The notes under the pieces are model-generated. The model saw only the letters and a list, made by a program, of their open reading frames with translations, made no database searches and had not been told where the DNA came from. A stretch of 55,197 nt of DNA from Promethearchaeota archaeon (GTDB lineage Archaea; Asgardarchaeota; Lokiarchaeia; Sigyniarchaeales; Sigyniarchaeaceae), in NCBI GenBank assembly GCA_016932935.1, contig JAFGBX010000173.1, forward strand, positions 1 to 55,197, in the 5' to 3' direction. This document shows positions 16,265 through 54,651 of this stretch, piece by piece. Position 1 is the first letter of the stretch; every line of letters starts with the position of its first letter. Made by a program: the position numbers and the translations under genes.

Positions 16265-16437
16265 GAGCGTCTCACCTATCGTTGCTAATACAGCTGCACA
16301 TTAATGCCTTATGTCGGTTATAAAGAATTTTAAGCACAGCACCAAGATCATACTCGATTCGTTTCGTTCTGCCGGGCCCGGTCGAAGCGGTGCGGCCGGA
16401 TCCGGTCAAACTCCAAGGATTTCCAAGCGTGACGGGC

Positions 16438-16956: not shown

Positions 16957-17198
16957 CGGCGGGTCCTGCTTGCAGAACATCGGTTTTTTTCCGTTTCTAT
17001 GCACCCGTGATGGCTCGAACGAGTGCAAGCCATGGCACGATCCGAAGGGCTTGATAGAAAGTTATTATGGGTTCCCGGTGTCATATTGATGAAGGAACCA
17101 GCGCCGCGGAGTGGCGCGGGGGCGAGCCCGCCGCGCAAGAACGAGGCGCGTTCCGGGCGATCGCGAAATCCGCCATCGAGTCCAACGTCGTGACGAGA

Positions 17199-17717
17199 AT
17201 GCCGCAAAAGTACAAGTTGAAGGCCGTGATCATCGGGGAACACGCCGCCGGGAAGACCAGCCTCATCAAGACCTTCGTGGAGGGGAAATTTTCAGCCGAT
17301 TACAGGCCCACGATCGGCACGAACATCTTCATCAAGAAGATCACGTTCGAGAACGGCGACGAGGCGACGCTCACGGTCTGGGATATCGCTGGGCAGGAGC
17401 GCTGGACCAGCATGCGTCCGTTGTATTACAAAGGGAGCTCTGGGGCACTGATCGTGGGTGACCTGACCAGGAAGTCCACGTTCGACCAGATCGTCAAGTT
17501 CTGGGCCCCCGACGTGAAGCGCCACGCGGGCGAGGCCATCCCCCTCATGGTCCTCGCCAACAAGTGCGACCTCCCCCGGGAGGCCTCGGCCGACGACGTG
17601 GAGAGCTGCACAAAAAATATCGGCGCCATCGGTTCGATCGACACGAGCGCCAAGAACGGCGACAACGTCAACGAGGCCTTCATGCGCCTCACCAAGGCTA
17701 TTCTAAAAAAAGCGTAA
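17199..17717 (+). CDS. Rab/Ras-like small GTPase (paralogue of the preceding gene)
   Basis: GEHAAGKTS, PTIGTNIF, WDIAGQERW, ANKCD, DTSAK; start chosen at ATG 17199. Confidence 0.95.
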   Translation: MPQKYKLKAVIIGEHAAGKTSLIKTFVEGKFSADYRPTIGTNIFIKKITFENGDEATLTVWDIAGQERWTSMRPLYYKGSSGALIVGDLTRKSTFDQIVKFWAPDVKRHAGEAIPLMVLANKCDLPREASADDVESCTKNIGAIGSIDTSAKNGDNVNEAFMRLTKAILKKA

Positions 17718-18018: not shown

Positions 18019-21000
18019 TTATTTTGCCAATTCCCAGATTTTAACTGTTTTTGTTCTTGAAATAGTGACAAGCTTGTTGGATTTATCAAGGAACGCTCCT
18101 TTTTTAAATTCCATATCGTTATCAAGCAAGAGGCTTTCGATGGTTTTGTTTTGCATATTCCAAATTATACCTATCATTCCTGCCTGAAATAAGCGCAAAT
18201 CGTCCGAGGAGAGCACGAGATCATCAGAACTTCGTGTTCGAATACCATGTTTGATATTAGAAATCGCGTTTTCTTTCAAGTTGTATGAATAATATCCATC
18301 CCCATAATGAGGCCAAATTACGTAACGTCCTTGTTGGGTGACAAACAATTCATCTTCCCATGAAAAAACGTTTTCCACCTTCACGCTTGTCGAGCCATCG
18401 TTCTTTTCCAATGCATCAAGGGTAGATGTGCATAATTTACCGGTATAATAACCTTCTTCCGAAAAAAGAGGATGGATTATTTTATCTGGTTCAATAAGAA
18501 CGAGTGAATTGATTGATAGATCGACATATCGCGAGAATACACAATTTAAATCTTCGTCATATAATTTAAGTGTATTTGCTTCTGAAACACATATGAGCTT
18601 GTTATCTCGGGGAGCTCTCGCGTGCCATTTCCGATCATGTTGCCTATATTCCATCCGATCCTTGAGTCGCTGAACAGTGTATTTATCTTGTTCACCTGCA
18701 CTCAAAGTATCACGTTTTGATGATTGTACAATAGAATCTGGTTTCTTTTCCATTTGAAAGGCCACACGTTTAACTATTTCTCCTGTAAAAAGTGATATTT
18801 TTACCATCGGATAAGCGAGTTCCTTTGGCAAGATGATGATGTGGTTCGCGTCGGGAGTAATCAGGAGTTTATATGATCTCCCAACATTCGTCGTGATGGA
18901 TAGCTCCCTTTTCTTGCTTTCGAGATTCCAGGCCGTTAACGAACCATCTTCATAGCATATGATAACGCGGTTCCTTGCGTTATCAACGACCATTTCAATC
19001 GGGTCTGTTTTTTTGTCAGCATCGACAGTGAAAGAGAGGCTTGGGTTCAAGAATGGAACCATTTCCAATTTCGGAAGCGATTTTCGGATATCTTGGATAA
19101 TGGTATCTATGAGATAATCTTGGACGGCAAGAAAGGAATCATCCTTTACCCAAAAAAGGAGATCTTGAAGAGGCCAATAGGTACGCTCTTTCACGTCTTT
19201 TAGACAAATCAAGATTTCTTGTTTAATTATATCTGGATCGAGCTTGTGGTTTGTTGCATACTCGATGAGTTTATCACGTCCTGACGTAGATGGATAGGAG
19301 GATCCTCTCTGTTTCCGATACTTTGCTTCAAAGCGAAACGAAGAATCCTTTCGAATCAGCGATTTTATGTACTTTGTTAATATATCGTCGTCAAAAGATT
19401 CGATCCCGAGTTCTTCAATGAAGAAACCAATTCCATAGCCGTCCAGATCGAAGCTACCGTTCTTTGCTTTTATATTACAGTTTTCTATAATGTAGCTCGC
19501 GCTTTTTGGAAGTACTAGAGACAATTCATCACTTTTAAATTCCCGGTACAAAGCAATGCAGCGCCCAGCGCTGAATGAATCGAAACTTTCTTTCAACTTT
19601 TCCAATAACAACCTATCGTCCACGTCATGAAAGAAATGATTGGTTCTAAGCCTAAAGCCGTAATCGAGAGATCCATCTAATATTCTCCTGATGAGAATCT
19701 GTCCATACACGGCCATTGCCTTTGGATCTCCATATTCATTCAGTCGTTTGAGTAAGTGTAATTCAAAATCCTTATACACCAAATTTGAATTATAATCGTT
19801 CTCATCCCAGGCCTGCAGGATCGAACATAATGCCCAGAATTCTTCATCGACAGAATAGGTCCCTTTCTTAGCCACATATTCTTTCTCTCCATGCTTCCCC
19901 GTTCCCATCCGATCCATGTAGATATAATTGATTTTGTCTACAGATTCGACATCGTCGATATAAGCGCCTCGTTCCTCTCTAAGTTCATCGGAAATGTTGA
20001 TGACCAATTCAAAATGAAAATAAAAAACAACTTCATCCACGAGAATCTTAACGTGCTTGTCTTCCTTGATCACGGACAAATAATCATTGATCTTAAACCG
20101 AATGGAACTTGGAGCCAGCCGTTTATCAAGAATTTCAACAATCGATTGCTCAGTCTTTCCCCAGTTGGAACGAGCTTCTTCAATTATGCCAGCATCAAGG
20201 GTCAGATGCCTGAATTTCTCATCGTTCCAAAGATGGGAAGTGAAATATTCAATTTTTTTCATCTTTAAAAACTGATAGGTAATTTTTTCGAATAACTTTC
20301 GAGAATCGGGGGAGATGATGTAAAATAAGTTTTCAACGTCTTTGATCGCGATGTCACTGCTCTTGAGTAGCGAATCGAAAATAACATCGACGTTTTTTTT
20401 GCAGAACTCTAGGAATTGCCTGTTCTCCGGTTTTTCCTCTAAGCATTCCTCATCCCATTCAAATCTATCGGACATTATTTCAGAAGCGATAACTCTAACG
20501 GCTAAAAACCAATTGTTCTCAGAAACAAGTGTTTCCACGTATTTTGTTAAGCGTTCAAAGGAAAAAATGTAAAAGAGATCATAATTATCGGATATAATGT
20601 CCTTGAAGCGTTTCTCGTCCTTAAAATAGGAGTCGTAGACAGTTCGTGCGGCTGCTGGATCCCCGGCGTTAGCAAGCTCGACGAGAAAGAAATCTCCTAT
20701 ATTTTGATCGTGAGCTTCTTTAACATCTTCCCAAGAACACCCTCCTTGTTCGAACCAAAACTTGATCGGGTTCCAATTTGGGTCAAGCTCGGTCATTAGG
20801 ACTTCGATATCATATCCAGCCTGAGAAATTTGAGGCTTGAATGAAGGACCGAGATGTTTTTCTAGCAAGGTTTTCCACGGATCGAGAGGTTTGTTGAAAA
20901 GCGAGACGAGGGCTGCCTTTGCGCGATCATCCTTTAATGAATCAGCAAGGTGCCAAACAACCTCCACGAGATACGCGCGAAGCTTCACATCTGTAACATT

Positions 21001-21900
21001 CGAGACCAAATAATCGACCAGGCGATCTAAATGCTCCTTTTGGAGGAGTTTCCGCGGCATTCCCTCCTCCAAGATGGCGATCTGGTTGTCGGCCGTTTCC
21101 CGTTCAAACCGTGCAAAATGGGATTCAATCATCCTCTCGGGATTATCCACGTCCCCCGCCTCACAGAACCGCAGCCAGACACGGATTTCAGGGATCGAAC
21201 CAAACGTGATTCCTTCCGAGATCGAGATGAGAAAAAAGGAAAAAACAGACAACATGTATTTTTTTTCGCGAGTTTTTTCATCCATAGGTTTGTTCTCAGA
21301 TTGATAACAATCGTCTGGAAGCAACCGACACTCCATATTGACTTTTTCACTATGGTCCACAATCACGCTCATCATTACATTTTCATTCACGGGAGAATCA
21401 TAGAACGTGGCTTCAAAGTCATCCAATTTCACTTTCACTAACAAATCGGGCGTTTCATGGAGCCCTTCTTGAACTCTGATGAAAGGACAATCAAGCTTCC
21501 TCGTGAAGGTAACATCGAATCCCCCCTCTACGCTGAGCTGGGTAATTCCCACGGGAAGAATGCCGTTGATCTGAAGAGCATCTTTGAATCCATGAATGAA
21601 TTGGAAATTTTCCCAGTCAAGATATTCACCAAGGCGCTTCCGTGCCCCCTCCCATCTCCGCGTCTTTAAATTGAGTATTCTTTCCTTGAACACGCGTTTC
21701 GCATTTTCGACGCTCGGTTGTGTATCGAACCCGAGGATCTGGTAGATGAGGGGATCGTGGGAACTTTTATTATAGATGGCGCCGTAGGTAGCGTTTCGAT
21801 CATTCATACAAAGGCACAGTTCTTCTGCTTCATAGCGAGCACCACGCGTGTAAAAATGATAACTCATGTAACCGAATAAGTGTAGATTTTCATCTATCAT
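18019..21900 (-). CDS. large alpha-solenoid plus C-terminal WD40/quinoprotein-like beta-propeller protein
   Basis: 1293 aa; C-terminal VVDNARNRVIICYEDGSLTAWNLESKKREL..., LITPDANHIIILPK, ...TVKIWELAK; alpha-rich central region. Start overlaps the radical SAM gene stop (ATGA). Confidence 0.65.
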   Translation of the reverse strand: MIDENLHLFGYMSYHFYTRGARYEAEELCLCMNDRNATYGAIYNKSSHDPLIYQILGFDTQPSVENAKRVFKERILNLKTRRWEGARKRLGEYLDWENFQFIHGFKDALQINGILPVGITQLSVEGGFDVTFTRKLDCPFIRVQEGLHETPDLLVKVKLDDFEATFYDSPVNENVMMSVIVDHSEKVNMECRLLPDDCYQSENKPMDEKTREKKYMLSVFSFFLISISEGITFGSIPEIRVWLRFCEAGDVDNPERMIESHFARFERETADNQIAILEEGMPRKLLQKEHLDRLVDYLVSNVTDVKLRAYLVEVVWHLADSLKDDRAKAALVSLFNKPLDPWKTLLEKHLGPSFKPQISQAGYDIEVLMTELDPNWNPIKFWFEQGGCSWEDVKEAHDQNIGDFFLVELANAGDPAAARTVYDSYFKDEKRFKDIISDNYDLFYIFSFERLTKYVETLVSENNWFLAVRVIASEIMSDRFEWDEECLEEKPENRQFLEFCKKNVDVIFDSLLKSSDIAIKDVENLFYIISPDSRKLFEKITYQFLKMKKIEYFTSHLWNDEKFRHLTLDAGIIEEARSNWGKTEQSIVEILDKRLAPSSIRFKINDYLSVIKEDKHVKILVDEVVFYFHFELVINISDELREERGAYIDDVESVDKINYIYMDRMGTGKHGEKEYVAKKGTYSVDEEFWALCSILQAWDENDYNSNLVYKDFELHLLKRLNEYGDPKAMAVYGQILIRRILDGSLDYGFRLRTNHFFHDVDDRLLLEKLKESFDSFSAGRCIALYREFKSDELSLVLPKSASYIIENCNIKAKNGSFDLDGYGIGFFIEELGIESFDDDILTKYIKSLIRKDSSFRFEAKYRKQRGSSYPSTSGRDKLIEYATNHKLDPDIIKQEILICLKDVKERTYWPLQDLLFWVKDDSFLAVQDYLIDTIIQDIRKSLPKLEMVPFLNPSLSFTVDADKKTDPIEMVVDNARNRVIICYEDGSLTAWNLESKKRELSITTNVGRSYKLLITPDANHIIILPKELAYPMVKISLFTGEIVKRVAFQMEKKPDSIVQSSKRDTLSAGEQDKYTVQRLKDRMEYRQHDRKWHARAPRDNKLICVSEANTLKLYDEDLNCVFSRYVDLSINSLVLIEPDKIIHPLFSEEGYYTGKLCTSTLDALEKNDGSTSVKVENVFSWEDELFVTQQGRYVIWPHYGDGYYSYNLKENAISNIKHGIRTRSSDDLVLSSDDLRLFQAGMIGIIWNMQNKTIESLLLDNDMEFKKGAFLDKSNKLVTISRTKTVKIWELAK

Positions 21901-22961
21901 ATTATTTTCCCAGAGGATTTTTGATCATTTGACCCTTCATTGAATTCCGGGCAAGAGCGTTTGTTATGTATCAATTTTTTTCTGAATTCTGAGAATTCCC
22001 GTGAAAACCAGACATCATGGATAAAATCACGTGCCCTAGGCACGCTGATCCCTTTGATGCTCGGCTGGCCTTCTAGGAACGAGCAAGGGTAGGCAATCCC
22101 GTCGACGTTGATGTAACAGCTGAAACACGAGCCTTCGCATGGCTCAACCATCATCGACAAGTGCTGCTTGTTCGGTAGATCTTGAATCACGCCTAAAAAT
22201 CGATTCGCCGAGCAGCTATCGAACCCGAAATTTATCTTTCTACGAAGTGCATCGACGATCAATTCCTTGAAATTCGCAGCATCCATGGGATGGAGGGTCT
22301 TTCCCCGCCCCTTTTTTTTTAGACTCAAGAAGATGACTGCATTCAAGCGGTGGACGAGTCGTCGATCCACGCATGTTTTTTTTACAAGCTCCAAGCAATC
22401 GGTGGTCGTTTCCAGGGACATGAGCTGGTGGATGTTGATCTGCTTTCCTCCGGACTTCGCGAGGAGGGCAACAGCATCGAAGCACGTGTCGTCCTCGTAA
22501 TGGCTAACAGCTACGGAACCGCATAGCTCCACGAGTTTTTTTGCATGTTCCGTTGTCAAGTGACTTCCATTGATGGTGACGTTCGGGATGACCTGGTTTT
22601 CCCGGCAATATCGAAAAATGTTCCAGAGATCCGGGTTCGCATCGAGATCGCCTATGCCAAATGCGATTTGGGTGAGCGTGTCTGGAAGCTTGCGAAAAAG
22701 CGCCTTGAAGGTATCGATCGACATGTTCTTGCCAGCAGGCAAGTTGCTCTTATAGCACCACGGGCATCCTCGAGAACAAGATGTGGAAACCTCGATATCG
22801 GCCATTTCTGGCCCGAACGGGCTGAACTGCGGGTCCTCCTTCAAGGTATTCCCCCACCTGATGAAAAGACCGTTTTTCATGTTGAACTTGTAGTTGTATT
22901 TCGCGCTATGGAGAGTCTTCCATTCCCCGCTGGTCTTCACCCCGTATTGCATGCCGATCAC
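21897..22961 (-). CDS. radical SAM protein with SPASM-like C-terminal cysteines
   Basis: ADIEVSTSCSRGCPWCYKSNLPAGKNMS (CxxxCxxC) and CEGSCFSCYINVDGIAYPCSFLEG...CPEF. Confidence 0.9.
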   Translation of the reverse strand: MIGMQYGVKTSGEWKTLHSAKYNYKFNMKNGLFIRWGNTLKEDPQFSPFGPEMADIEVSTSCSRGCPWCYKSNLPAGKNMSIDTFKALFRKLPDTLTQIAFGIGDLDANPDLWNIFRYCRENQVIPNVTINGSHLTTEHAKKLVELCGSVAVSHYEDDTCFDAVALLAKSGGKQINIHQLMSLETTTDCLELVKKTCVDRRLVHRLNAVIFLSLKKKGRGKTLHPMDAANFKELIVDALRRKINFGFDSCSANRFLGVIQDLPNKQHLSMMVEPCEGSCFSCYINVDGIAYPCSFLEGQPSIKGISVPRARDFIHDVWFSREFSEFRKKLIHNKRSCPEFNEGSNDQKSSGKII

Positions 22962-39485: not shown

Positions 39486-40856
39486 ATGGAGTTCCGCGAC
39501 TTTTTGGCCTTCTTGAGGAGCGCGCGGGCCTTGGTCGAGATCGAACGCCCTTGCTCCACTGAATTGGAGATTGCCTGCGAGATAAAGCGGCACGACGGCA
39601 AGCCTGTGCTGTTCCGGAACGTGAAGGGCCATTCCATTCCCGTGGCGGCAGGCCTGTTCGGCTTTCGGGGGGCGTTCTCGATCGGCACGATGGATGGCCC
39701 GGCCTTGAAGGCCAACACCCCGGTGGATTTATTGCACGAGAAGCGCCTTCCCGCGACCGACCCGCGATCGTTCATCAACAAGCTCTACCGTGCCATCGAA
39801 GCGCGGAAGGAACCGGAGCCGGTGGGCGAGGGCCAAACGGCCCCGTGCCAGGAGGTCATCGACAAGCCGGGCAGCCTCGACTCTCTCCCGATCCTCAAGC
39901 ACCTGCCGGGGGACGGCGGGAGGTATATCACGTCGGACGTGGCGATCTACACGTGCCCGAAGCACGGGCGGAACATCAGCATGCACAGGCTTTTGGTGCT
40001 GGGAAAGAACCGCATGGTGGCGAGGACGGTCGAGAACCGCGGGCTGGACACGGCCATCCAGGAGAAGAAGGGCGAGCCGCTCGAGGCCGCCTTCACCATC
40101 GGCAACTCCTCGCAAGTACTCCTCGCCGCATCAACGAGCCCCCCGAAGGGCGTCGACGAGCTCTCGATCGCCAATACGCTCTCCCCGTTCAAGGTCGTGA
40201 AATGCCAGACCATCGACGTCGAGGTGCCGGTGGATTCCGAGATCGTCATCGAGGGGAGGTTCATCCCGGAACGCGTTGACGAGGGCCCGTTCCTCGACCT
40301 GACGGGCACGTTCGACATCGTCCGCAAGCAGCCCGTGTTCGAGGTGACATGCATTACGCGCCGGCGAGACGCGGTCTACCACGCCCTCAACCCCGCGGGC
40401 ATGGAGCACCAGCTGCTCATGGGCCTCCCGCGGGAGGCCACGATGCTCGCCGAGCTGGCCAAGCTCGGCTACGTCAAGGACGTGCGCGTGACGGCCGGTT
40501 CATCGCACTGGTTCAACGCCGTCGTGCAGGTCGACAAGGGCAAGGAGCTCGACCCGGCGTGCGTGATCCAGGCGTGCTTCAAGGGCCACGGGAGCTTGAA
40601 AAATTGCACGATCGTGGATGACGACATCGACATCGACGACCCGAACGACGTCGAGTTCGCCGTCACGACCAGGAGCCAGTTCGACAAGCACCTCTACCTG
40701 TACCCCAAGGAGCGGGGCAGCTCGCTCGACCCGTCGGCCAACCAGGTCACGCGCGAGACTTGCAAGGTCGGCGTTAACGCGACCGTCCCGCGCGGCGGGC
40801 ACGGTGCCGGCTACGACAAGAACTTCAGCAGGATCACCTATTGCAGCAAGGAATGA
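39486..40856 (+). CDS. UbiD-family decarboxylase, probable trans-anhydromevalonate 5-phosphate decarboxylase
   Basis: UbiD-like DFLAFLRSARALVEIERP, YITSDVAIYTCPKHGRNISMHRLLVLGKNRMVAR, EGPFLDLTG, CTIVDDDIDIDDPNDVEFAVTTR; operon with AcnX and MVA genes. Confidence 0.93.
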   Translation: MEFRDFLAFLRSARALVEIERPCSTELEIACEIKRHDGKPVLFRNVKGHSIPVAAGLFGFRGAFSIGTMDGPALKANTPVDLLHEKRLPATDPRSFINKLYRAIEARKEPEPVGEGQTAPCQEVIDKPGSLDSLPILKHLPGDGGRYITSDVAIYTCPKHGRNISMHRLLVLGKNRMVARTVENRGLDTAIQEKKGEPLEAAFTIGNSSQVLLAASTSPPKGVDELSIANTLSPFKVVKCQTIDVEVPVDSEIVIEGRFIPERVDEGPFLDLTGTFDIVRKQPVFEVTCITRRRDAVYHALNPAGMEHQLLMGLPREATMLAELAKLGYVKDVRVTAGSSHWFNAVVQVDKGKELDPACVIQACFKGHGSLKNCTIVDDDIDIDDPNDVEFAVTTRSQFDKHLYLYPKERGSSLDPSANQVTRETCKVGVNATVPRGGHGAGYDKNFSRITYCSKE

Positions 40857-40861
40857 GGAGT

Positions 40862-42127
40862 ATGGCCAAGGTAGATGCCAACGAGGCGATGTCGCGCATG
40901 CTCGCCGGGGAGTCGGGCGCCGGCACGCAAGTCGCCGCCGAGATGATCGCGGCGCTGGCGAAGATCTACGGGGCGGAAGGCTACGTGCCCATCGTCTCCG
41001 CGCAGATCGCCGGCGTGTCCTACAAGAACATCGGGGAGGCCGGGATCGAGTTCCTGGAGTCGATGCGGAAGGGGGGAGCTCGGACACGCGCCCGTGCCAC
41101 GCTGAACCCTTGCGGGCTCGACCTCGAGGCATGGCGCGAGCTCGGCTTCCAGGAGCAGTTCTACAAGGACCAGGCGCGAGCCCTCGACGCTTACCGGGGG
41201 CTCGGCATCGAGATGACCTGCAGCTGCACCCCCTACTTGATAGGCAACGCGCCGGGGCTCGGCGACCACGTGGCGTGGAGCGAGTCCTCTGCGCTGTCGT
41301 ACGCGAACTCGGTGCTCGGTGCTCGGACCAACCGCGAGGGCGGCCCGTCGGCCCTGGCCGCGGCCATCACCGGGTACACGGGGAACTACGGGCTGCACCT
41401 CGATGAAAACCGGGTGCCCTCCGTCCACGTCCACGTTACGTGTCCCGTCGAGACGTACCAGGACTTCGGTAGCCTGGGCCTCATGCTCGGGAAGAAGCTC
41501 GGGCAGTCCGTTTCGATCATCACGGGCCTGCAGCCAGGACGCTGCACGCCGGAGCGCCTGCGCCAGCTCGGGGCATCGATGGCCGCGAGCGGGGCCGTGG
41601 CGCTCTACCACGTGGCCGGTGCCACGCCGGAGGCGGGCGCTTACACCGGGAAGGTGGCGAGCGGCGAGATCCCAACCCGCCTCGTCGAGGTCGCGTCGAT
41701 CGACGATGTCTCGGACGTGGTTCCTGCGGGCCTCGCCGAGGGGCAACCGATGGCCGTGGATCTCGTCTTCGTGGGGTGCCCGCACGCGTCGAAGGGCGAG
41801 GCCCTCGACCTCCTCGGCGCGTTGGAAGGGCGGGAGCTGAAGGCTGACGTGTGGATCGCCATGGCGCGCGACGTGAAACGGGAGCTCATACAGGACGCGG
41901 CGTTCGCCAAGGCCATGTCCCCGCGCGTCAAGCTCGTGGCCGACACTTGCATCGTCGTCTGCCCGATCGATGATCTCGGTTACTCCTCCGTCGCCACGAA
42001 CTCGGGCAAGGCTTACTTCTACCTCAAGAACAACCCGCGGCTAGCGGTCGCGCACCGGGACACCGCGGCGTGCCTGGACGCGGCGGTCACGGGCATCGCT
42101 ATAAACAAGGACCGGGGGGAAGCGTGA
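40862..42127 (+). CDS. phosphomevalonate dehydratase large subunit (AcnX type)
   Basis: AKIYGAEGYVPIVSAQIAGVSYKNIGEAGIEFLE, CTPYL, SESSALSYANSVLGARTNREGGPSALAAAITG. Confidence 0.93.
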   Translation: MAKVDANEAMSRMLAGESGAGTQVAAEMIAALAKIYGAEGYVPIVSAQIAGVSYKNIGEAGIEFLESMRKGGARTRARATLNPCGLDLEAWRELGFQEQFYKDQARALDAYRGLGIEMTCSCTPYLIGNAPGLGDHVAWSESSALSYANSVLGARTNREGGPSALAAAITGYTGNYGLHLDENRVPSVHVHVTCPVETYQDFGSLGLMLGKKLGQSVSIITGLQPGRCTPERLRQLGASMAASGAVALYHVAGATPEAGAYTGKVASGEIPTRLVEVASIDDVSDVVPAGLAEGQPMAVDLVFVGCPHASKGEALDLLGALEGRELKADVWIAMARDVKRELIQDAAFAKAMSPRVKLVADTCIVVCPIDDLGYSSVATNSGKAYFYLKNNPRLAVAHRDTAACLDAAVTGIAINKDRGEA

Positions 42128-42519
42128 TGGCTCGGGTGAAAGCGCGCGTGATATGCACGGGGGACGTGTCGGGGGAGGTTCTCTTCACCGACAAGCCCCT
42201 GCTCATCTACACGGGTATCGACCCTGCTTCGGGCAACGTCGTGGAACGTGGCCACCCGTTGAACGGCCAGTCCGTCGCGGGCCGCGTGCTCGTGTTCCCG
42301 GAGGCCAAGGGCTCGACCGTCGGCAGCTGGACGCTGCTCCAGCTCAAGAAGAACGGCGTAGCTCCGCTCGCCATAGTCAACCAGCTGTGCGAACCGATCG
42401 TCGCCACGGGTGCGATAATGGCGCGCATCCCGTGCGTCGATAAAGTGGATATAGCCCCCCTTCGAGACTGCCAGCGCGTGACGATCGCCGCCGACGACGT
42501 CATCTTCAACGAAAACTAG
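42127..42519 (+). CDS. phosphomevalonate dehydratase small subunit (AcnX swivel domain)
   Basis: GIDPASGNVVERGHPLNGQSVAGRVLVFPEAKGSTVGSWTLLQLKKNG. Confidence 0.93.
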   Translation: MARVKARVICTGDVSGEVLFTDKPLLIYTGIDPASGNVVERGHPLNGQSVAGRVLVFPEAKGSTVGSWTLLQLKKNGVAPLAIVNQLCEPIVATGAIMARIPCVDKVDIAPLRDCQRVTIAADDVIFNEN

Positions 42520-42523
42520 AGAA

Positions 42524-43696
42524 GTGCATGAACAAATGGTAACCACCTCGGGCCTGGGCAAGCTCTACGAGAAGACGGTCAAGGAGCGCATCGAGGCAGT
42601 CGCGGGGGCGTGCAACCTGCCGCCGGGGGCGGTCGCGGAACTCGAGAGCAGCATGGATCCTGCAATGGCGAAGATCCTCGACTTGATGGTGGAGAACGTG
42701 ATCGGAGCGTTCCAGATCCCCCTGGGGGTCGCGACCAACTTCGTCATCAACGGCAAGGAGCGCCTCGTCGCCATGGCCACCGAGGAGCCGTCGGTCGTGG
42801 CCGCCGCGTCGAACGCCGCCCGCATGGCCCGCTCTCACGGCGGGTTCGTGGCCGACCCCGTGGAATCCCTCATGATCGGCCAGGTGCAGCTCGTCGACGT
42901 GGACGACGCCGGGGCCGCGATCGCAACGATCAAGGGGAACGAGAAGCGGATCATCGACGTGGCAAACGAGCAAGATCCCGTCCTGGTGAAGGCGGGGGGC
43001 GGTGCGCGGCGCGTGGACGCGTTCAAGGTCGACACGAGCGTGGGGGCAATGGTCGACGTGCACGTCGTGATCGACTGCCTGGACGCTATGGGTGCCAATG
43101 CCGTGAACACCATGGCCGAGAAGGTGGCTCCGCTGCTCTGCGATATCACCGGCGGCCGGCCTCTCTTGCGCATCATCTCGAACCTCGCGGTGCACCGCGT
43201 GGCCCGGGCGAGGGCGACGTTCGACAAGGAGCTCCTCGGCGGTTCGGAGGTCGTGGCTGCGGTCATCCAGGCGGTCGAGTTCGCGAACCACGACATGTAC
43301 CGCGCCGCCACGCACAACAAGGGCATCATGAACGGGGCTAGCGCGGTCGTCCGCGCGACGGGGAACGACACGCGGGCCGTCGAGGCCGGGGCACACGCCT
43401 ACGCGGCGTGGGGGCACCCCTACAGGCCGCTGACGCGCTTCCGCGTCGACCCCGCGGGGAACCTCCTGGGGGAGATCGAGCTGCCCGTTGCGGTCGGCAT
43501 CGTCGGCGGGGCCACGAAAGCGCACCCGATGGCCCAATTGTGCTTGAGAATCATGGAGATCGACGGCGCGCAGACTCTGTCCCAGGTGGTCGCGTCGGTG
43601 GGCCTAGCGCAGAACGTCGCGGCGCTGCGCGCCCTCGCCGCAGAGGGGATCCAGAAGGGCCACATGAAGCTCCACGCGAGGAAACTCGGCAGATGA
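42524..43696 (+). CDS. hydroxymethylglutaryl-CoA reductase, class II-like
   Basis: MVENVIGAFQIPLGVATNFVINGKERLVAMATEEPSVVAAASNAARMA; ATHNKGIMNGASAVV. The true start may be the internal MVTTSGLG. Confidence 0.93.
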   Translation: MHEQMVTTSGLGKLYEKTVKERIEAVAGACNLPPGAVAELESSMDPAMAKILDLMVENVIGAFQIPLGVATNFVINGKERLVAMATEEPSVVAAASNAARMARSHGGFVADPVESLMIGQVQLVDVDDAGAAIATIKGNEKRIIDVANEQDPVLVKAGGGARRVDAFKVDTSVGAMVDVHVVIDCLDAMGANAVNTMAEKVAPLLCDITGGRPLLRIISNLAVHRVARARATFDKELLGGSEVVAAVIQAVEFANHDMYRAATHNKGIMNGASAVVRATGNDTRAVEAGAHAYAAWGHPYRPLTRFRVDPAGNLLGEIELPVAVGIVGGATKAHPMAQLCLRIMEIDGAQTLSQVVASVGLAQNVAALRALAAEGIQKGHMKLHARKLGR

Positions 43697-43717
43697 TCAC
43701 CGGAGGGGGACGGTTGC

Positions 43718-44650
43718 TTGGGAAAAGGTAGAGGGTTCGGGAAGACCATTCTTTTCGGCGATCACTTCGTTGTCTACGGTTTAGAAGGCATTCCTTGCGC
43801 TTTGGGTCAAGTTACAACGGCAGAAGTGAAAAGAATAGAAGGAAAAAAGGATTACGAATTAATAGACAACCGCCAAGCAACACCCGGGTATAAGGAAGAA
43901 AAGAAAGGGGAATACGCGGCGCTCATCGATCGGATTCTCGGGTACCTGAAAGTGGAAGGCCGGGTGCGGATCACGCTCGGTGGTGACCTGGTTCCGGCTT
44001 CGGGCATCGGGGCGAGCGCGGCATGCGCGGTGGCGATCGCACGAGCGGTGAATGACGAATACAACCTCGGGCTTGGCGATGCCGAAATAAACAACGCGGC
44101 CTACGAGGGGGAAGTTGCGGGGAGCGGCACGCCGAGCGGGATAGACAACACGGCCGCGACGTATGGTGGGTTCCTCTTATTCAAGAAGAACCTTGCCGGT
44201 GGCGAGAACAAGATCGAGGTCTTGAGGGTGAAAAAACCCGTGGAGATCGTCCTCGGGAACTCGGGCAAAACGGCACTGACGAAGCAAGTCGTGGACGACG
44301 TGCGGAAATTGAGGAAAGAAACAAACATCGAGCCCATCTTCCACGCTTACGATGCATTAGAGAAGCAAGCCGTCGAAGCGATCAAGAAAGAGAACTGGAA
44401 AGAAGTAGGCATGTTGATGGATAAAAACCAGGAGCTGCTCGAGAAACTAACCGTCTCCGGGAAGGAACTCGAGGAGATGATCGCAGCGGCGCGTGCCGCC
44501 GGGGCGTTCGGGGCGAAGCTGACGGGAACCGGCCGCGGTGGCCTGGTCATCTGCTTGACCCCGGGGAAAGAACTTCAAGACGGGGTCGCGAGGGCCATCG
44601 AAGGGGCGGGATACAAGACGATCAAAACGGTCATCGGGGAACTCGTGTAG
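43718..44650 (+). CDS. mevalonate kinase (GHMP kinase)
   Basis: GKTILFGDHFVVYGLEGIPCALG, DLVPASGIGASAACAVAIARAVN, GSGTPSGIDNTAATYGGFLLF, AKLTGTGRGGLVI. TTG start. Confidence 0.93.
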   Translation: MGKGRGFGKTILFGDHFVVYGLEGIPCALGQVTTAEVKRIEGKKDYELIDNRQATPGYKEEKKGEYAALIDRILGYLKVEGRVRITLGGDLVPASGIGASAACAVAIARAVNDEYNLGLGDAEINNAAYEGEVAGSGTPSGIDNTAATYGGFLLFKKNLAGGENKIEVLRVKKPVEIVLGNSGKTALTKQVVDDVRKLRKETNIEPIFHAYDALEKQAVEAIKKENWKEVGMLMDKNQELLEKLTVSGKELEEMIAAARAAGAFGAKLTGTGRGGLVICLTPGKELQDGVARAIEGAGYKTIKTVIGELV

Positions 44651-44692
44651 TACGTTTCTATGAAGATCGATTCAAGCGATAGGGGGAGATGG

Positions 44693-45544
44693 ATGCCAAC
44701 CACGGAGAAAAACATCACGATAATCAAGCTCGGGGGGAGTTGTTTTTCTGACAAGAAGGTACCTCGGTCTCTGCACGTGGACGTGATCGACGGCGTGTGC
44801 AAGCAGCTCGAAGGGGCCGGCTTCCCGTTGATCGTCGTGCATGGCGGGGGTTCCTATGGCCACCCCGTCGCGAAGAGGTACGGCATCCACCTCGGCTGGC
44901 AAGAAGGCTTTGGAGACCAGTCAGCAGGGTTTTGCGAGACGCACGAGGCGATGGTCGAGCTGAACCACGCCATCGTCGGCCAGTGCTTGAAGCACGGGAT
45001 CCCCGCCTTCGCCGTGCAGACGTCAGCCGTGTTCCTCCTCGAGGGCGGGGCAGTGAGCTCCGCGCGGCTAGACGCGGTCGACGCGCTGCTCGACCAGGGG
45101 TTGGTGCCCGTCCTCTACGGGGATGCGGTGGTCGACACCTCCCGAGGGTTCGGCATCATGTCGGGCGACGCTATCATCGTGGAGTTGGCAAACAGGCTCA
45201 AGCACCGCGTCGATCGCATCGTGTACCTCATGGACGTCGATGGCTTGTTCGACAAGGATCCGAGGCAAGGCCCCGGTGCGAGGCTGATCCCCGACGTGGT
45301 CATCGAGGGCGGCGAGCTGTTCGTCCCCGGGGAGGCAGGCCCCGCTCGTCTCGAGGACGTCGTGCAGCAAGGGGGCGCGTCGATCGACGTCACGGGGGGG
45401 ATCATCGGGAAGCTGCGGGCGCTCGCCCACCTCGAGGACAAGGAAGTTGCAATAAATCTGATATGCGGCCGCAACCGCTCGTCGCTTGCCGGCTTGATCA
45501 GCGGTGCCCCCGTGCCGTGCACGCGAGTGTCGATCAAGAGGTAA
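44693..45544 (+). CDS. isopentenyl phosphate kinase
   Basis: ITIIKLGGSCFSDKKVPRSL, IVVHGGGSYGHPVAKRYGIHLG, MSGDAIIVELA, LMDVDGLFDKDP, DVTGGIIGKL. Confidence 0.93.
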   Translation: MPTTEKNITIIKLGGSCFSDKKVPRSLHVDVIDGVCKQLEGAGFPLIVVHGGGSYGHPVAKRYGIHLGWQEGFGDQSAGFCETHEAMVELNHAIVGQCLKHGIPAFAVQTSAVFLLEGGAVSSARLDAVDALLDQGLVPVLYGDAVVDTSRGFGIMSGDAIIVELANRLKHRVDRIVYLMDVDGLFDKDPRQGPGARLIPDVVIEGGELFVPGEAGPARLEDVVQQGGASIDVTGGIIGKLRALAHLEDKEVAINLICGRNRSSLAGLISGAPVPCTRVSIKR

Positions 45545-45560
45545 GCAAAAGGCGCATACG

Positions 45561-46652
45561 ATGGTGAACGATCGAAGGCTCAACGAGGACAGGAAGTTGG
45601 ACCACATCAAGTCCATCACGGAAGGCGGGATGCAAGCCTCGCGTAACTGGATGGACGAGGTCTACCTCCACCCCGACGCGGTTCCCGCGGTCGATCCTGC
45701 CGGCGTGGACGCGACCGCCTACTTGTTCGGACGCAAGTTCGACGCGCCCTTCTACGTCGCGGCTATGACCGGCGGGCATCCGAAGACCAAGGGGATCAAC
45801 GAGGTGCTCGCGCGCGCGTGCGCCAAGGCCAACATCCCCATGGGCGTGGGGAGCCAACGAGCCGCCCTGGACAACGAGGATCTCGCCGGCACTTTCAAGG
45901 TCGCGCGGGACGCGTCGGACAAGCTGTTCCTCATCGCCAACATTGGCATGTCACAGATCGTGAAAGCCAAGGAGCCGGTCATCACTGCCAAGAAATGCAT
46001 CGACATGATCAATGCGGACGCCATAGCAATCCACTTCAACAAGCTCCAGGAACTCGTGCAACCTGAAGGCGATCGGAACTTCACGAAGATAATGGACATC
46101 ATAGAGGCTATCGAAGACGGGCTCAAGATCCCGGTCATCGTCAAGGAAGTGGGCATGGGTTTCTCCCGCTCGGACTACGAGATCTTGCGCAACTACCGCG
46201 TCGCCGCCGTCGACACGGGCGGGTTCGGCGGCACGAACTTCTCGCTGGTGGAGGCAGTGCGGGTCGACGAGGACTCCTACCCGTACACCCGGAACCTCGG
46301 CAAGACGTTCCAGGACTGCGGGACGCCCACGCCCATCTCGGTCATGCTCGCGAAGAAGTACACGGGACTGCCCATCTTGGCCACGGGGGGGATCCGCACG
46401 GGCCTGGACGTCGTGAAAGCGCTCTGCCTAGGTGCGGATATGGCGGGGCTCGCCTACCCGTTCCTCATCGCTGCGCTGAACGACGTGAACGTGAGCGGGG
46501 GAAACCAGTCCAATGACGCGTGCACGAGGGAGATGGAGACGATCAAGGCGGAGATCAAGACGGCGATGTGCTTGCTCAACGCGAAACGCGTCGGCGACCT
46601 CGACGATTCCCAAGTGCACGTGTCTGCCGATCTATCCCGATGGATCGAATAG
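45561..46652 (+). CDS. fni: type 2 isopentenyl-diphosphate delta-isomerase
   Basis: RKLDHIKSI, PFYVAAMTGGHPKTKGINEVLARACAKANIPMGVGSQRAALDN, AIHFNKLQELVQPEGDRNF, DTGGFGGTNF. Confidence 0.95.
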   Translation: MVNDRRLNEDRKLDHIKSITEGGMQASRNWMDEVYLHPDAVPAVDPAGVDATAYLFGRKFDAPFYVAAMTGGHPKTKGINEVLARACAKANIPMGVGSQRAALDNEDLAGTFKVARDASDKLFLIANIGMSQIVKAKEPVITAKKCIDMINADAIAIHFNKLQELVQPEGDRNFTKIMDIIEAIEDGLKIPVIVKEVGMGFSRSDYEILRNYRVAAVDTGGFGGTNFSLVEAVRVDEDSYPYTRNLGKTFQDCGTPTPISVMLAKKYTGLPILATGGIRTGLDVVKALCLGADMAGLAYPFLIAALNDVNVSGGNQSNDACTREMETIKAEIKTAMCLLNAKRVGDLDDSQVHVSADLSRWIE

Positions 46653-46657
46653 CATAA

Positions 46658-48307
46658 ATGGGTGAAGGGCATTATTCGATCACGAATTACCGCCGGGAGA
46701 GCGCCGTGATCTCATCTTCAAAGGATCATACCACCGAGGAGTCCATCAAGATCCTCTTCTCGAACTTCGTGCGGAGCGTCCCCGACACCCAGGCCATCGT
46801 CGCGCTCGACGGGGAGAAGGATACCATCATCGCATCCCAGGTCCAGGAGGGCGAATCGGAATCCTCCTTCAAGGCGGTTTCGGGGTCGATCAAGAACGTC
46901 CTGGACAGGCTGACGAGGGAGCTGGTCACGAGCTCGGGCCCCGTCTCGTTCTTCGACACCGACCAGAACCGCTTGATATTCATCAAGGTCAAGAACGTCG
47001 TGCTGAGCGTCGCCCTGAAGGTCGACGGCTCGGTCGACGCGGCGCTCCCCTATGCCTACCTGACCGCCGAGAAGGTACGCAACATCACGGAAGGGCGCGA
47101 CGTCGAGCTGGACATCCCGCTCATCAAGGTGATCACCGACGAGGAGGAGCAGAAGATGCTCCGCGATCACTTCTTCGAGCTCCGGTCTAGCAGTGGCAAC
47201 TTCAGCTTCAAGGTCATCGTGATCGGCGATCAAAACGTGGGCAAGACGAGCCTCATATTGCGCCACGCCGAGAACAAGTTCAAGGAGAATTACCTGCCCA
47301 CGCTTGGCGTCAGCATCACCACCAATTCCATTGACCTTCCGTTACGAAAGGCAAGGGTCAACTTTTCGATTTGGGATTTTGGCGGGCAACAGTACTTCAG
47401 GCGCGTGCGTTTGAGTTATTACGCAGGCTGCCAGGCTTGTATAATTGTGTTTGACATCACGAACAAGGAATCCTTCGAAAACGTCATGAAATGGGACGAG
47501 GAACGAAAGCGATTCGCCGGTGGCGACATCCCCACCATACTCCTGGCCAACAAGAGCGACCTGGCAGCAAACAGGGTGGTCTCCGAGCAAGCGATCGTCG
47601 AACTAGCGAACTCCCACGGGTTCACCTATTTCGAGACGTCGGCGCTCACCGGATCCAACGTCCCCGACGCGTTCAACCTCCTCGCTTACAAGCTCGTGGA
47701 TCACGAAGCGAAGAAGGTGGAGGAGAAGGAGCTCCAGGGCTTGAAGGAGGAGGTCAAGGCCGGCATCATCGAGGCCGGGGGCAACCTGCGGTTCGGCCTC
47801 GTCAAGACGAAGTCCTTGTTCGACCCAATCTTGCAAGTCTTCCTCGAGATGGACCGCTCGCCCACCCTCGAAACCGCGACCATGGCGAAGACCTACACGT
47901 TCAGCTTCGGCATGACCCTCGTCGTGATCGAGGTTTCCGATAAGGAGTACTTCTACAAGCAAGTCGAGCTGATGAAGGACTTGGACGGCGTGCTCGGGTT
48001 CATCGATGCCCGCAAGTTGAAGAGCCCGGACGAGATGGCCAAGTTCGCGCAGTTCCTCAAGCTTTTATTCCAGTCTGCGAAGAAAGAAACGTTCACCGGC
48101 TCGATCGGCATCCTCTGCGAGAAGGAGAGGTATTCCGAGCTCCTATCCAAGCTGGATCTGTCGCCCGTCCTCGGCACGAGCCAGAACGCTCGCAAGTCCG
48201 TGTTCTTTTACAACCTGACCGATAATTACCTGCTCGAGATCATGGACAACTTGCGCATGCTGTTCCAAGCGCTGGACTTCGGGACGCTCGATTCCAGCGA
48301 TATGTGA
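46658..48307 (+). CDS. multidomain small GTPase: N-terminal roadblock/longin-like region, central Ras/Rab-like G domain, novel C-terminal region
   Basis: N-terminus DTQAIVALDGEKDTIIASQ...DTDQNRLIFIKVKNVVLSVALKVDGS; G domain GDQNVGKTS, WDFGGQQYF, LANKSD, ETSA. Confidence 0.85.
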   Translation: MGEGHYSITNYRRESAVISSSKDHTTEESIKILFSNFVRSVPDTQAIVALDGEKDTIIASQVQEGESESSFKAVSGSIKNVLDRLTRELVTSSGPVSFFDTDQNRLIFIKVKNVVLSVALKVDGSVDAALPYAYLTAEKVRNITEGRDVELDIPLIKVITDEEEQKMLRDHFFELRSSSGNFSFKVIVIGDQNVGKTSLILRHAENKFKENYLPTLGVSITTNSIDLPLRKARVNFSIWDFGGQQYFRRVRLSYYAGCQACIIVFDITNKESFENVMKWDEERKRFAGGDIPTILLANKSDLAANRVVSEQAIVELANSHGFTYFETSALTGSNVPDAFNLLAYKLVDHEAKKVEEKELQGLKEEVKAGIIEAGGNLRFGLVKTKSLFDPILQVFLEMDRSPTLETATMAKTYTFSFGMTLVVIEVSDKEYFYKQVELMKDLDGVLGFIDARKLKSPDEMAKFAQFLKLLFQSAKKETFTGSIGILCEKERYSELLSKLDLSPVLGTSQNARKSVFFYNLTDNYLLEIMDNLRMLFQALDFGTLDSSDM

Positions 48308-49984: not shown

Positions 49985-50302
49985 TCAACCGATTTCGATG
50001 CCCTCTGTCATGGCGCTGCTAATCGTGCCTTTTTGGCCGCTTTTAATCTTGAATTCCTTCGGCGTGTAGCAGATGGGCTCGAGTTCTAGTGGATAACCGT
50101 CCCAAAAGTCAAGAACCAAGGCTATTCTTTCTGAAAATCTCATATCGGAGAAATATTCGGAGATAACGATAATATCATAATCGCTGTTTCGGAAATTATC
50201 ACCTCTTGCCCTGCTTCCAAATAGAATGATCCGATCGATGGGAAGCTTTTCCTTTATTCGGCTAGCGAATTCTCGAATTCTTCCATCCGGTTCTTTACCC
50301 AT
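49985..50302 (-). CDS. MNT-type nucleotidyltransferase antitoxin
   Basis: RIILFGSRARGDNFRNSDYDIIVISE (GSx-DxD). Confidence 0.85.
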   Translation of the reverse strand: MGKEPDGRIREFASRIKEKLPIDRIILFGSRARGDNFRNSDYDIIVISEYFSDMRFSERIALVLDFWDGYPLELEPICYTPKEFKIKSGQKGTISSAMTEGIEIG

Positions 50303-50655
50303 AATATCACCCTTCTCGCAGTAGTCAGATAATGTTCTCCGATTACTTCGTCATAATTTTCAGCTGGAATCCCGTTTGCAATATCTGGATAACGTGAGAT
50401 CATGTATTCGGGATTCAATTCTCTTATACCGGTCATTAATTCCCGCGGGATGCCCAATTCATTTGCCAAGTAGATTAACGAATGGCTCTTGGCGCTTTCG
50501 TTCTTGATTAGAAGGTAAAGCCCTTTCATGGCCTTTTCCGATGCTTGATGGGAATAAAACGCGACGCCGTCGAAGTATTCAGCCTTTTGGAGGACATCTG
50601 CCTTCTTGTAGTCGGCTTCTGCCTGTGAGATCCAGTCTGTTACTTCCCGACGCAT
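50254..50655 (-). CDS. HEPN-domain toxin
   Basis: WISQAEADYKKADVLQKAEYFDGVAFYSHQASEKAMKGLYLL; overlaps the downstream MNT gene. Confidence 0.85.
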   Translation of the reverse strand: MRREVTDWISQAEADYKKADVLQKAEYFDGVAFYSHQASEKAMKGLYLLIKNESAKSHSLIYLANELGIPRELMTGIRELNPEYMISRYPDIANGIPAENYDEVIGEHYLTTARRVILWVKNRMEEFENSLAE

Positions 50656-51500: not shown

Positions 51501-51545
51501 AAGGTTTTCTGTCTCGATGCCTTTAACAGACGTGGCGACGCGGAC

Positions 51546-53330
51546 ATGAGCGAGCATGACTTGAAGGGCATCGTGCGGAAGTACACGCTGATCAACGCTG
51601 GAAAGTACAGCGGCACGGCACAAGTGGGCTCGGTGCTCAGCGCGATCATGGGCGAGATGAAGGAGTTACGTTCGAGGGCGAAGGAGATCAAGCCGCTCGT
51701 CGAGGAGGCCGTGAAAGCGGTCAACACGATGCCGCTCGACCGCATCATGGCGGAGCTTGCCACGCTCGGCGTCGACGCCGAGGATCTCGGCCCTAAGAAG
51801 AAGGACGAGAAGGAGGGGCTCCCCCCGCTGCCGGGGATTGACAAGGTCAAGTCCCCCGTCTTCCGCATGGCACCCTTCCCGAGCGGCCCGCTCCACATCG
51901 GGAACGCCCGCATGGTCGTGCTGAACGACGAGTATGCGAAGATGACGAAGGGGAAGTTGATCCTCGCGTTCGACGACACGATCGGCGCCATGAAGAAGAA
52001 GATCGAGGAAGACGACTCCGGCGCCAAGTACGTCATACCGGAAGCGTACGACATGATCCGCGAGGGCCTCACGTGGCTTGGGGTCAACTGGGATCAAGAG
52101 GTCTTCAAGAGCGACCGTCTCCCGATTTACTACGACTACTGCAAGCAACTCATCCAGAAGGGCGAGGCGTACGCGTGCACTTGCGAGCCATCGGCGTTCA
52201 AGGCGTTCAAGGACGCCAAGAAGCCCTGCCCGCACCGTGACCAACCCATCGAGGACGCGATGGAAGGTTTCCAAAAAATGCTTGATGGCGCTTACGAGGA
52301 GGGCTCGGCAGTCATCCGGTTCAAGAGTGGCGTCGACCTGAGCGATCCCGCGTTGCGAGAGCCCGTCATCATGCGCATCTCCGATGCGGAACACCCTCGT
52401 GTCGGCACGAAATACCGGGTGTGGCCCATGCTGGAGTTCTCTTGGGCACTAGACGATCACCTCCTTGACATGACCTATATCATCCGTGGCAAGGATCTCT
52501 TCAAGGAGGACGTCATTGAGGAGCAGGTCTGGAAGATCTTCGGCTGGAAACCCGTACATATCCTGCATTACGGCATTATCTCGACCGAGAAGCTGGGCAA
52601 GCTTAGCAAGACCTACGCGAGGGAGATGATCACGAAGGGCGAGTACGTCGGCTGGGACGACCCGCGCACGTGGACGCTCCAGTCTCTCGACCGTCGTGGA
52701 ATCCGGCCGGAACCGCTCCGATACGTGCTGCTGTCCCAGGGCCTCAAGATGGCCGACGTCGACTTCCCCGCGTCCATCATGTACGCGGAGAACCAGAAGA
52801 TCATCGATCCGATCTCGAACCGGTACTTCTTCGTCGAGGATCCCGTTCCGTTGTCCATCACGGGCATACCGGACAGGAGCTACACGGCCGAGCCACTCGT
52901 CAACCCGCTCGATCCGTCCCTCGGGAACAGGTCCATCTCCATCCTCGTCAAGGACGGGGCCAAGAAGGTGCTCGTGTCGCCGTCCGACGTAGAGAAGATC
53001 AAGGGCGCAGGCGGGGACGTGCTCGTCCGGCTGAAGGATCTGTTCAACGTCACGGTTCCGGGTGGCGACATCTCGAAAGCGGCGTTCCATTCCAAGGATC
53101 TCGATGCGGCGAGGAGCCAGAAAGCGCCGGTCATCCAGTGGATAGATTCGGATCCGAAGAATAACGTTGTTGTCCAGGTCTTGATGCCGGACGGCCGGGT
53201 CACCTCCGGTAGGGGGGAGTTTAACCTGCAATCGGTGAAGGCCGGCGAGACGCTGCAGTTCGAGCGCTTCGGCTTCGTAAAGGTGCAATCCGTCACGAAG
53301 AAAAAAGTTGACGCGTGGTTCACGCACTAG
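51546..53330 (+). CDS. gltX: glutamyl-tRNA synthetase, archaeal type
   Basis: FRMAPFPSGPLHIGNARMVVLNDEYAK (HIGH-like), class I archaeal GluRS architecture, C-terminal beta-barrel; start chosen at ATG 51546. Confidence 0.93.
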   Translation: MSEHDLKGIVRKYTLINAGKYSGTAQVGSVLSAIMGEMKELRSRAKEIKPLVEEAVKAVNTMPLDRIMAELATLGVDAEDLGPKKKDEKEGLPPLPGIDKVKSPVFRMAPFPSGPLHIGNARMVVLNDEYAKMTKGKLILAFDDTIGAMKKKIEEDDSGAKYVIPEAYDMIREGLTWLGVNWDQEVFKSDRLPIYYDYCKQLIQKGEAYACTCEPSAFKAFKDAKKPCPHRDQPIEDAMEGFQKMLDGAYEEGSAVIRFKSGVDLSDPALREPVIMRISDAEHPRVGTKYRVWPMLEFSWALDDHLLDMTYIIRGKDLFKEDVIEEQVWKIFGWKPVHILHYGIISTEKLGKLSKTYAREMITKGEYVGWDDPRTWTLQSLDRRGIRPEPLRYVLLSQGLKMADVDFPASIMYAENQKIIDPISNRYFFVEDPVPLSITGIPDRSYTAEPLVNPLDPSLGNRSISILVKDGAKKVLVSPSDVEKIKGAGGDVLVRLKDLFNVTVPGGDISKAAFHSKDLDAARSQKAPVIQWIDSDPKNNVVVQVLMPDGRVTSGRGEFNLQSVKAGETLQFERFGFVKVQSVTKKKVDAWFTH

Positions 53331-53478: not shown

Positions 53479-54651
53479 ATGGAGCCCCGATCCGAGCCCA
53501 ACAGCGAGCAGCCGTTGATCCCGGCGCCGGTAGCGACGCCAGCGACGACTTGCAAGTACTGCAAGAAGGAGATATCGCGGTTCGCCTCCTTGTCGCCCGC
53601 GTACTGCCCGTACTGCGGGGGTATCGTGAACCCGGATCTGGCGCCCGTGAAGCCGGAGAAGGACTCGAACCCGCTCACCGGGCGCGCCTTGTGGCCACTG
53701 AAATGGTCGTTGCTGGCGATCCTCATCGGGATGGGCCTGCTCATGATGGCCTCCATCATCGTCCCGCTCCTTATGATCTTCGCGATCATCGGCGCGAACC
53801 CATCGCTGATATCTGGTGACCTCACGGCACTCGAAGACCTCGTCTACGAGGTGTTACTCAACCCGGTGTCGACTGCCCTTCTTTCGGCAACCGAGTTCGT
53901 GCTCGTGATCCCGCCGTTCGCGATCATGCGGAAGTACCGGAAGAGCGTGAAGGAGCGGTTCATGTTGCTCGGCTGGTGGCCGTACACGGGGGATTCAGGG
54001 CGGGGCTGGGGCCGCCTGGGGAGGGACCTCGCCTGGGGACTGCTGATCGCGATGGGCCTCGTCGGCTTCCAGTTCATCATCGTCGTCCTGAACGACGCAC
54101 TGTGGTCGCCATTGATCCCCAGCGGCAACAGTGGGCTCAGCGACTTGGACGCGTCCATCACGCCCAGAGACCCGTTCCAGCTGGTCTTGCTCGTGGCGTC
54201 GATGATGCTCGTCATCGGCCCGACCGAGGAAATCCTCTTCCGGGGCTTTTCGCAGCAAGGGCTCGAAGCGCGGTTGGATCCAAAGCATGCCCTCGTGATA
54301 TCGGCGCTCCTCTTCACCATCGTCCACGTGATCGGGGGCTTCGTCGATCCAACCTCCCTCCCGTTCCTATTCTTCCCCTACTTCCTGCTGTCGCTGGTGC
54401 TCTGCGGGATCTACTGGAGAACCAAGGATCTCAACCTGATGATCTTCGTCCACGGGATGTACGACTCGCTGCTCGTGGTCTACTCGTACATCTTCTCGGA
54501 GCTGTCGAAGGTCGGGAAAGAGGAGTTCTCTGACATTTTCGTATACATCTCGTTCGTGGCGCTAAGCGTGCTCGTCACGTACCTGACCGTAACCTTCATC
54601 ATCCACAAGCGGCATCAAGTCGGCGCGATCCCCCTTTTCAGGGACGCGTGA
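53479..54651 (+). CDS. CPBP-family intramembrane metalloprotease with N-terminal zinc ribbon
   Basis: CKYCKK...YCPYCGG, then TM helices with EEILFRGFSQQGLEAR, FTIVHVIGGF, MIFVHGMYDS. Confidence 0.92.
   Translation: MEPRSEPNSEQPLIPAPVATPATTCKYCKKEISRFASLSPAYCPYCGGIVNPDLAPVKPEKDSNPLTGRALWPLKWSLLAILIGMGLLMMASIIVPLLMIFAIIGANPSLISGDLTALEDLVYEVLLNPVSTALLSATEFVLVIPPFAIMRKYRKSVKERFMLLGWWPYTGDSGRGWGRLGRDLAWGLLIAMGLVGFQFIIVVLNDALWSPLIPSGNSGLSDLDASITPRDPFQLVLLVASMMLVIGPTEEILFRGFSQQGLEARLDPKHALVISALLFTIVHVIGGFVDPTSLPFLFFPYFLLSLVLCGIYWRTKDLNLMIFVHGMYDSLLVVYSYIFSELSKVGKEEFSDIFVYISFVALSVLVTYLTVTFIIHKRHQVGAIPLFRDA

Follow-up and report, generated by a model that had tools for sequence, protein, structure and literature searches.

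A single protein from the Lokiarchaeia combines a roadblock domain, a Rab-like GTPase and a pseudoGTPase. Complex cells descend from ancestors to which the Lokiarchaeia are related, and Asgard archaea possess many small GTPases of eukaryotic type. With a switch, a platform that may regulate it and a dead version of that switch in one chain, the protein offers a self-contained system amenable to expression and testing. The combination of a live and a dead G domain, familiar from proteins of eukaryotes, would have arisen in archaea as well, and in an arrangement of three domains that resembles the eukaryotic two-switch Rag machinery. The gene lies in the window, i.e. the whole stretch of 55,197 nucleotides that was analysed. 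The genome that holds the window belongs to the same genus as the Asgard archaeon Candidatus Sigynarchaeum springense and, at 82% completeness, contains 56 Ras-type G-domain matches.

The gene, its start codon and its conservation

46658-48307, + strand: longest open reading frame, 549 aa, starting at ATG 46658
46706..48307, + strand: probable coding sequence, GTG start (codon 17), 533 aa

The reading frame is open throughout, as the first-pass annotation had described it, and the G domain is indeed embedded in the 549-aa protein (Ras/Rab G domain at residues 185-345; Pfam Ras, 1.5e-45). It is flanked by about 150-180 aa on the N-terminal side and about 190-200 aa on the C-terminal side. Neither flank has a Pfam match above the cut-off, and Pfam and NCBIfam searches with the flanks alone gave nothing useful. 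GTG 46706 is probably the true start of the three-domain protein. At the codon that matches it, the copy of the congener (another genome of the genus) has TTG and that of the next genus has ATG; the congener's copy also has an in-frame TAA upstream of the matching start codon, and a GGAG is found 6 nt 5′ of GTG 46706. In the AlphaFold2 model of the whole protein (66-row alignment, mean pLDDT 80), residues 1-15 have a pLDDT below 50.

The congener's copy is 88% identical to the window protein, and full-length relatives at 32-37% identity are spread across the order. The dN/dS values against the congener are low, namely: 0.12 for the N-domain, 0.067 for the G domain and 0.058 for the C-domain, the last being as low as that of the G domain. 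Taken together, these three lines of evidence indicate that the three-domain protein is more than a chance arrangement, and the computation shows it to be vertically inherited under purifying selection.

Three domains in one chain

46733..47089, + strand: roadblock/LC7 domain, residues about 26-144, assigned from AlphaFold2 topology, profile matches and similarity to free-standing Robl_LC7 proteins encoded elsewhere in the genome
47090..47194, + strand: linker between the roadblock and the Rab-like domain, residues 145-179, modelled with low confidence (pLDDT below 50 for 157-175)
47195..47692, + strand: Rab-like G domain, residues 180-345 (Pfam Ras 1.5e-45, Rab1 3.7e-37, Foldseek matches to Rabs)
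47225..47251, + strand: G1 P-loop, GDQNVGKTS
47375..47389, + strand: G3, DFGGQ
47549..47560, + strand: G4, NKSD
47660..47773, + strand: single long helix from G domain to C-domain, residues 335-372 (DSSP on the model, pLDDT about 83-92)
47786..48280, + strand: predicted pseudoGTPase domain, residues 377-541, Ras-like b-a-b-b-b-a-b-a-b-a-b-a (AlphaFold2, Foldseek, hhalign, hmmsearch)
47804..47836, + strand: degenerate P-loop position, KTKSLFDPILQ (TENxxWSPGLQ in relatives)

In the AlphaFold2 model, the N-domain consists of a helix (26-40), two strands (44-51 and 56-62), a second helix (68-91), three further strands (96-100, 104-111 and 114-121) and a last helix (126-144). This is the a1-b1-b2-a2-b3-b4-b5-a3 topology of the roadblock/LC7 fold, and the order a-b-b-a-b-b-b-a is given for Asgard roadblocks by Tran et al. 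(2024; PMC10933270). A profile built from 31 N-domain rows matches the roadblock/LC7 structures 7yh1 (1.7e-7), 7f8m (1.5e-5) and 9jue (2.7e-4) in the PDB, and 7yh1 is one of the codes deposited with that paper. The same profile finds matches elsewhere in the window genome; the two that were checked are stand-alone Robl_LC7 proteins according to Pfam. Pfam Robl_LC7 itself gives sub-threshold matches on the N-domain in 4 of 15 members. Foldseek with the whole model returned G-domain matches only and none to the N-domain, so the assignment of the latter as a roadblock/LC7 domain rests on topology and sequence profiles.

The first-pass annotation had proposed a roadblock or longin fold for this region. 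The roadblock half of that guess agrees with the topology, with the matches to Asgard Robl_LC7 structures and with the Robl_LC7 proteins of the same genome. The longin half is ruled out by the helix-first topology of the model: a longin domain, taken here to have two C-terminal helices and none at its N-terminus, is incompatible with a helix (26-40) ahead of b1 and just one helix between b5 and the linker. The linker that follows is likely to be flexible, as judged from the model. Other GTPases of the window genome carry a different N-domain, which on reading is longin-like in appearance.

The middle domain is predicted to be a working Rab-like switch with intact G motifs. It has the Ras fold and motifs G1 to G5, and the P-loop, the switch-I Thr, the DxxGQ-type G3, the NKxD and the SA motifs are present in essentially all 49 full-length relatives. 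GKT/S and the flanking Gly of the P-loop are found in all 48 aligned rows that have letters there, the catalytic Gln of G3 is kept in 49/49, and so is each of the N, K and D residues of G4. Rab1 is the closest PDB match by sequence (3.7e-37), and the Thorarchaeota Rab 7ezb was also matched (3.2e-32). Foldseek retrieved Rab1, Rab8, Rab5 and Thor-Rab, with a TMt of 0.92-0.96 for Rab1, Rab8 and Thor-Rab. At the position of Ras Gly60, the window protein has Gly and 43 of the 49 relatives have Ala. Changes at this position disturb switch II, and the Lokiarchaeia copies may therefore cycle oddly. A prenylated Rab is ruled out, with no Cys among the last 6 residues in 36 near-full-length proteins.

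The C-terminal region had been described as matching nothing, a statement overturned by the AlphaFold2 model, by Foldseek and by two profile matches, to Rnd1/Rho6 and to the protein's own G domain. Modelled alone (AlphaFold2, 49 rows), the C-domain reaches a pLDDT of 90.7 and a pTM of 0.87, and its elements follow the small-GTPase order, i.e. a leading helix and then E-H-E-E-E-H-E-H-E-H-E-H. All 50 PDB matches listed by Foldseek are G proteins (best E 5.5e-6), and among those listed are Arf, Sar1, Arl, the Asgard proteins HodArfR1 (TM 0.68) and GerdArfR1, G-alpha and Toc34. A new fold is ruled out by the model together with these matches. With a TM of about 0.6-0.68 at an rmsd of about 4 Å and 5-16% sequence identity to G proteins, they show that the folds match, which falls short of proving that the domain derives from a GTPase. 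In hmmsearch, the C-domain profile matches Rnd1/Rho6 at 1.8e-4, over the same stretch as in the profile-profile match. hhalign places the C-domain in register with the G domain of the same proteins over b4-a3-b5 with a score of 31.4; this match spans only about 41 columns, and the best of 150 column shuffles scored 23.0 (0/150 reach 31.4) and the reversed profile 12.9. A hint of Peptidase_S49 in the C-domain (E 0.025, below the cut-off, in 1 of 15 members) was taken as noise.

The nucleotide-binding motifs of the C-domain have been lost in 49/49 sequences: none has a GxxxxGK[ST] P-loop and none has NKxD. Other residues are conserved instead, namely: Pro390 (49/49), Trp388 (43/49), D450/R452 and Gly484. 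With its Ras-like fold, the C-domain is thus best described as a degenerate second G domain, predicted to be nucleotide-blind (a pseudoGTPase). Since the motifs were lost and other residues kept in their place, the domain appears to have been retained for a role other than nucleotide binding. At a greater evolutionary distance, the C-domain has diverged more rapidly than the G domain (49% vs. 73% identity).

Distribution, paired paralogues and gene neighbourhood

Of 228 Asgard genomes, 62 have the C-domain; all of these belong to the order of the window genome and to three of its families, namely: the Sigynarchaeum family (f1), a further family (f3) and a Lokiarchaeia family (f4). Among the 228 genomes it is absent from the family that holds Harpocratesius (f2), from the Prometheoarchaeum MAG, from two Helarchaeota and from everything outside the order. 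Nearly every complete copy lies in an open reading frame of about 520-560 aa or longer.

Sigynarchaeum has one copy of the gene, whereas most f4 Lokiarchaeia have two adjacent copies. A tree of 49 rows places the downstream members of 13 such pairs on one side of a single branch (support 97/94), and 0 of 500 shuffles gave a value as low. This points to one old tandem duplication in Lokiarchaeia, since maintained as a neighbouring pair. Adjacent, diverged paralogues suggest hetero-pairing, and such a pair points to a specific matching of partners that gene order rarely reveals in Lokiarchaeia. For the single-copy Sigynarchaeum protein, a heterodimer model is not needed.

In one genome (G030, locus L113), two three-domain copies lie in longer reading frames of 822 and 896 aa, lengthened at the C-terminal end, and a 1652-aa gene separates them. 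A public genome labelled as Bathyarchaeota isolate Bin_245 (L021, WJJB01000055.1) has the cluster in its Sigynarchaeum form and is placed among Sigynarchaeota by the tree; its label looks wrong. The window genome also encodes a 365-378-aa protein with two tandem Ras-type G domains and no roadblock (L146, C65), as well as further double-G reading frames of 1630 aa (contig C186) and 544 aa (contig C172). Within the window, two more Rab-like small GTPase genes adjoin each other at 16390-17717 (+ strand; Pfam Ras 5e-44 and 1.5e-41). They are mutually close relatives and lie next to a tRNA-Arg gene (15612-15687), where a stretch with a lower GC content borders on the rest (0.46-0.49 vs. about 0.6). 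In that stretch, at 18019-22961 (- strand), are genes for a 1293-aa protein with a weak beta-propeller match near its C-terminus and then a radical SAM/SPASM-like protein; this region is possibly an inserted element.

The neighbours of the three-domain gene are as follows:

39486-46652: modified mevalonate cluster (UbiD-type decarboxylase, AcnX large and small subunits, class II HMG-CoA reductase, mevalonate kinase, IPK, IDI-2)
45561..46652, + strand: type 2 IPP isomerase (IDI-2), upstream neighbour and last gene of the cluster (TIGR02151, 8e-99)
51540..53330, + strand: GluRS, downstream neighbour (tRNA-synt_1c, 2.7e-56), conserved beside the three-domain gene in f1 and f3
53479..54651, + strand: Rce1-like CPBP protease, downstream neighbour (PF02517, 2.2e-18), conserved after GluRS

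The gene had been thought to follow the mevalonate operon by 5 bp and perhaps to be cotranscribed with it. From the GTG start, the gap to the IDI-2 gene is 53 bp, and the linkage itself holds in the four f1 genomes that carry the gene and fails elsewhere. Both adjacencies, IDI-2 to the three-domain gene and the latter to GluRS and the Rce1-like gene, are found again within the Sigynarchaeum family (in genome G002 they lie on separate contigs), and the GluRS/Rce1-like part is also kept in f3 and not in f4. Because the linkage is limited to the Sigynarchaeum family, the connection with isoprenoid synthesis appears to be a feature of the lineage and is weak evidence for function; the mevalonate operon was accordingly dropped as the key to what the protein does. 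On the 3′ side, the gene is followed by a B12/radical SAM protein, a HEPN/nucleotidyltransferase pair on the opposite strand, GluRS and the Rce1-like protease. The pair (49985-50655, - strand) consists of HEPN and a minimal nucleotidyltransferase, i.e. a toxin-antitoxin type, and was not seen among the larger reading frames examined at the matching place in the congener (L111). In the cluster itself, the mevalonate kinase (43718-44650, + strand) is about 31% identical to the gene at the same place in a genome of the same genus (L115:2622-3647), whereas its neighbours are 54-74% identical. It looks like a gene that was replaced in place.

Proposed mode of action and known systems

The reading that we prefer, at a confidence that stands halfway, is that the protein forms roadblock dimers in which each chain bears a live and a dead switch and the dead G fold offers a surface to partners. 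Two chains would pair through their roadblock domains, giving a homodimer in Sigynarchaeum and, in f4 Lokiarchaeia, probably a heterodimer of the two neighbouring paralogues. The dimer would hold two live switches on one platform and act on them in cis or in trans. The predicted nucleotide-blind G fold, held rigidly on helix a5, would give partners a fixed surface, whether to dock an effector or to bias the live switch; the roadblock would contribute to the one or the other. With two G folds and roadblocks, such a working plan would be Rag-like, though its parts are arranged differently. A bolder version, which strikes us as rather unlikely, has Lokiarchaeia independently building a Rag/Ragulator-like machine, with a live and a dead G domain per chain on roadblock dimers, where the duplication would have led to an obligate hetero-pair and the dead domain would set the state of the live one.

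Roadblock domains can be mere scaffolds, and this counts against the preferred reading. It is quite possible, and we allow for it tentatively, that the roadblock only anchors the protein to a complex or membrane, that the pseudoGTPase is a plain binding module, and that neither of them affects the cycle of the live G domain, which separate GAPs and GEFs would drive. The flexible, poorly modelled linker between roadblock and G domain is consistent with this, as are the stand-alone roadblock proteins of the same genome and the suggestion, in PMC10933270, of a scaffold role for some Asgard roadblocks. It fits less well with a C-domain that is rigidly continuous with helix a5 in the model, and with a cis linkage retained in every complete copy found. 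That the C-domain is instead an unrelated Rossmann-like domain of convergent element order, never a GTPase, is very improbable: the best profile match is short and the identity to G proteins just 5-16%, but the order of elements is specific to Ras, including the b2-b3 hairpin, no other fold occurs among the 50 Foldseek matches listed, and two independent profile methods match small GTPases in register. A role in isoprenoid metabolism, e.g. in sensing or regulating the supply of lipid precursors, is suggested by the mevalonate cluster and the Rce1-like protease nearby, since Sigynarchaeum-family genomes retain the string from mevalonate cluster through the gene to GluRS and the Rce1-like protease, and f3 retains its GluRS/Rce1-like part. 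We consider it most improbable, however, as many f4 loci that were read have no such neighbours, the same gene string contains the housekeeping GluRS, and 36 near-full-length proteins have no C-terminal cysteine for prenylation.

The first-pass annotation's analogy with MglA-MglB and Rag-Ragulator was reasonable. Its main claim was already known, since fusions of roadblock or longin domains with GTPases have been published for MK-D1, where 26 of 74 GTPases carry one or the other (PMC10933270). What looks new is the pseudoGTPase and the paired paralogues. Among the open papers searched, none was found that describes a roadblock-GTPase-pseudoGTPase protein or the paired paralogues, and a pseudoGTPase in Asgard archaea gave no match.

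Among known systems, the MK-D1 fusions are Asgard proteins that likewise carry a roadblock at the N-terminus and, immediately after it, a small GTPase domain; the second, degenerate G domain that is present here does not appear in the main text of PMC10933270. MglA-MglB also joins a small GTPase with a roadblock partner, but on separate chains and without a pseudoGTPase. p190RhoGAP (PMC5593906) resembles the present protein in having Ras-like folds without GTPase motifs inside a larger regulatory protein; it is eukaryotic, however, and its pseudoGTPases are embedded in a GAP and not fused to a live GTPase and a roadblock. The live G domain here resembles the Rab family (Rab1, Thorarchaeota Rab 7ezb) and superposes on many Rabs with an rmsd of 1-1.6 Å, but differs from Rabs in having DxGGQ/DxGAQ for DTAGQ, flanking domains and no C-terminal cysteines. 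Finally, Rag/Gtr with Ragulator/EGO shares with our protein two G folds and roadblock domains per assembly. In Rags the roadblock is C-terminal to the G domain, both G domains bind nucleotide and they lie on separate chains, whereas here the roadblock is N-terminal, a G fold takes the C-terminal place, the live G domain is Rab-like (Pfam Ras 155.1 vs. Gtr1_RagA 22.8 bits) and the second is predicted to be dead and lies in cis.
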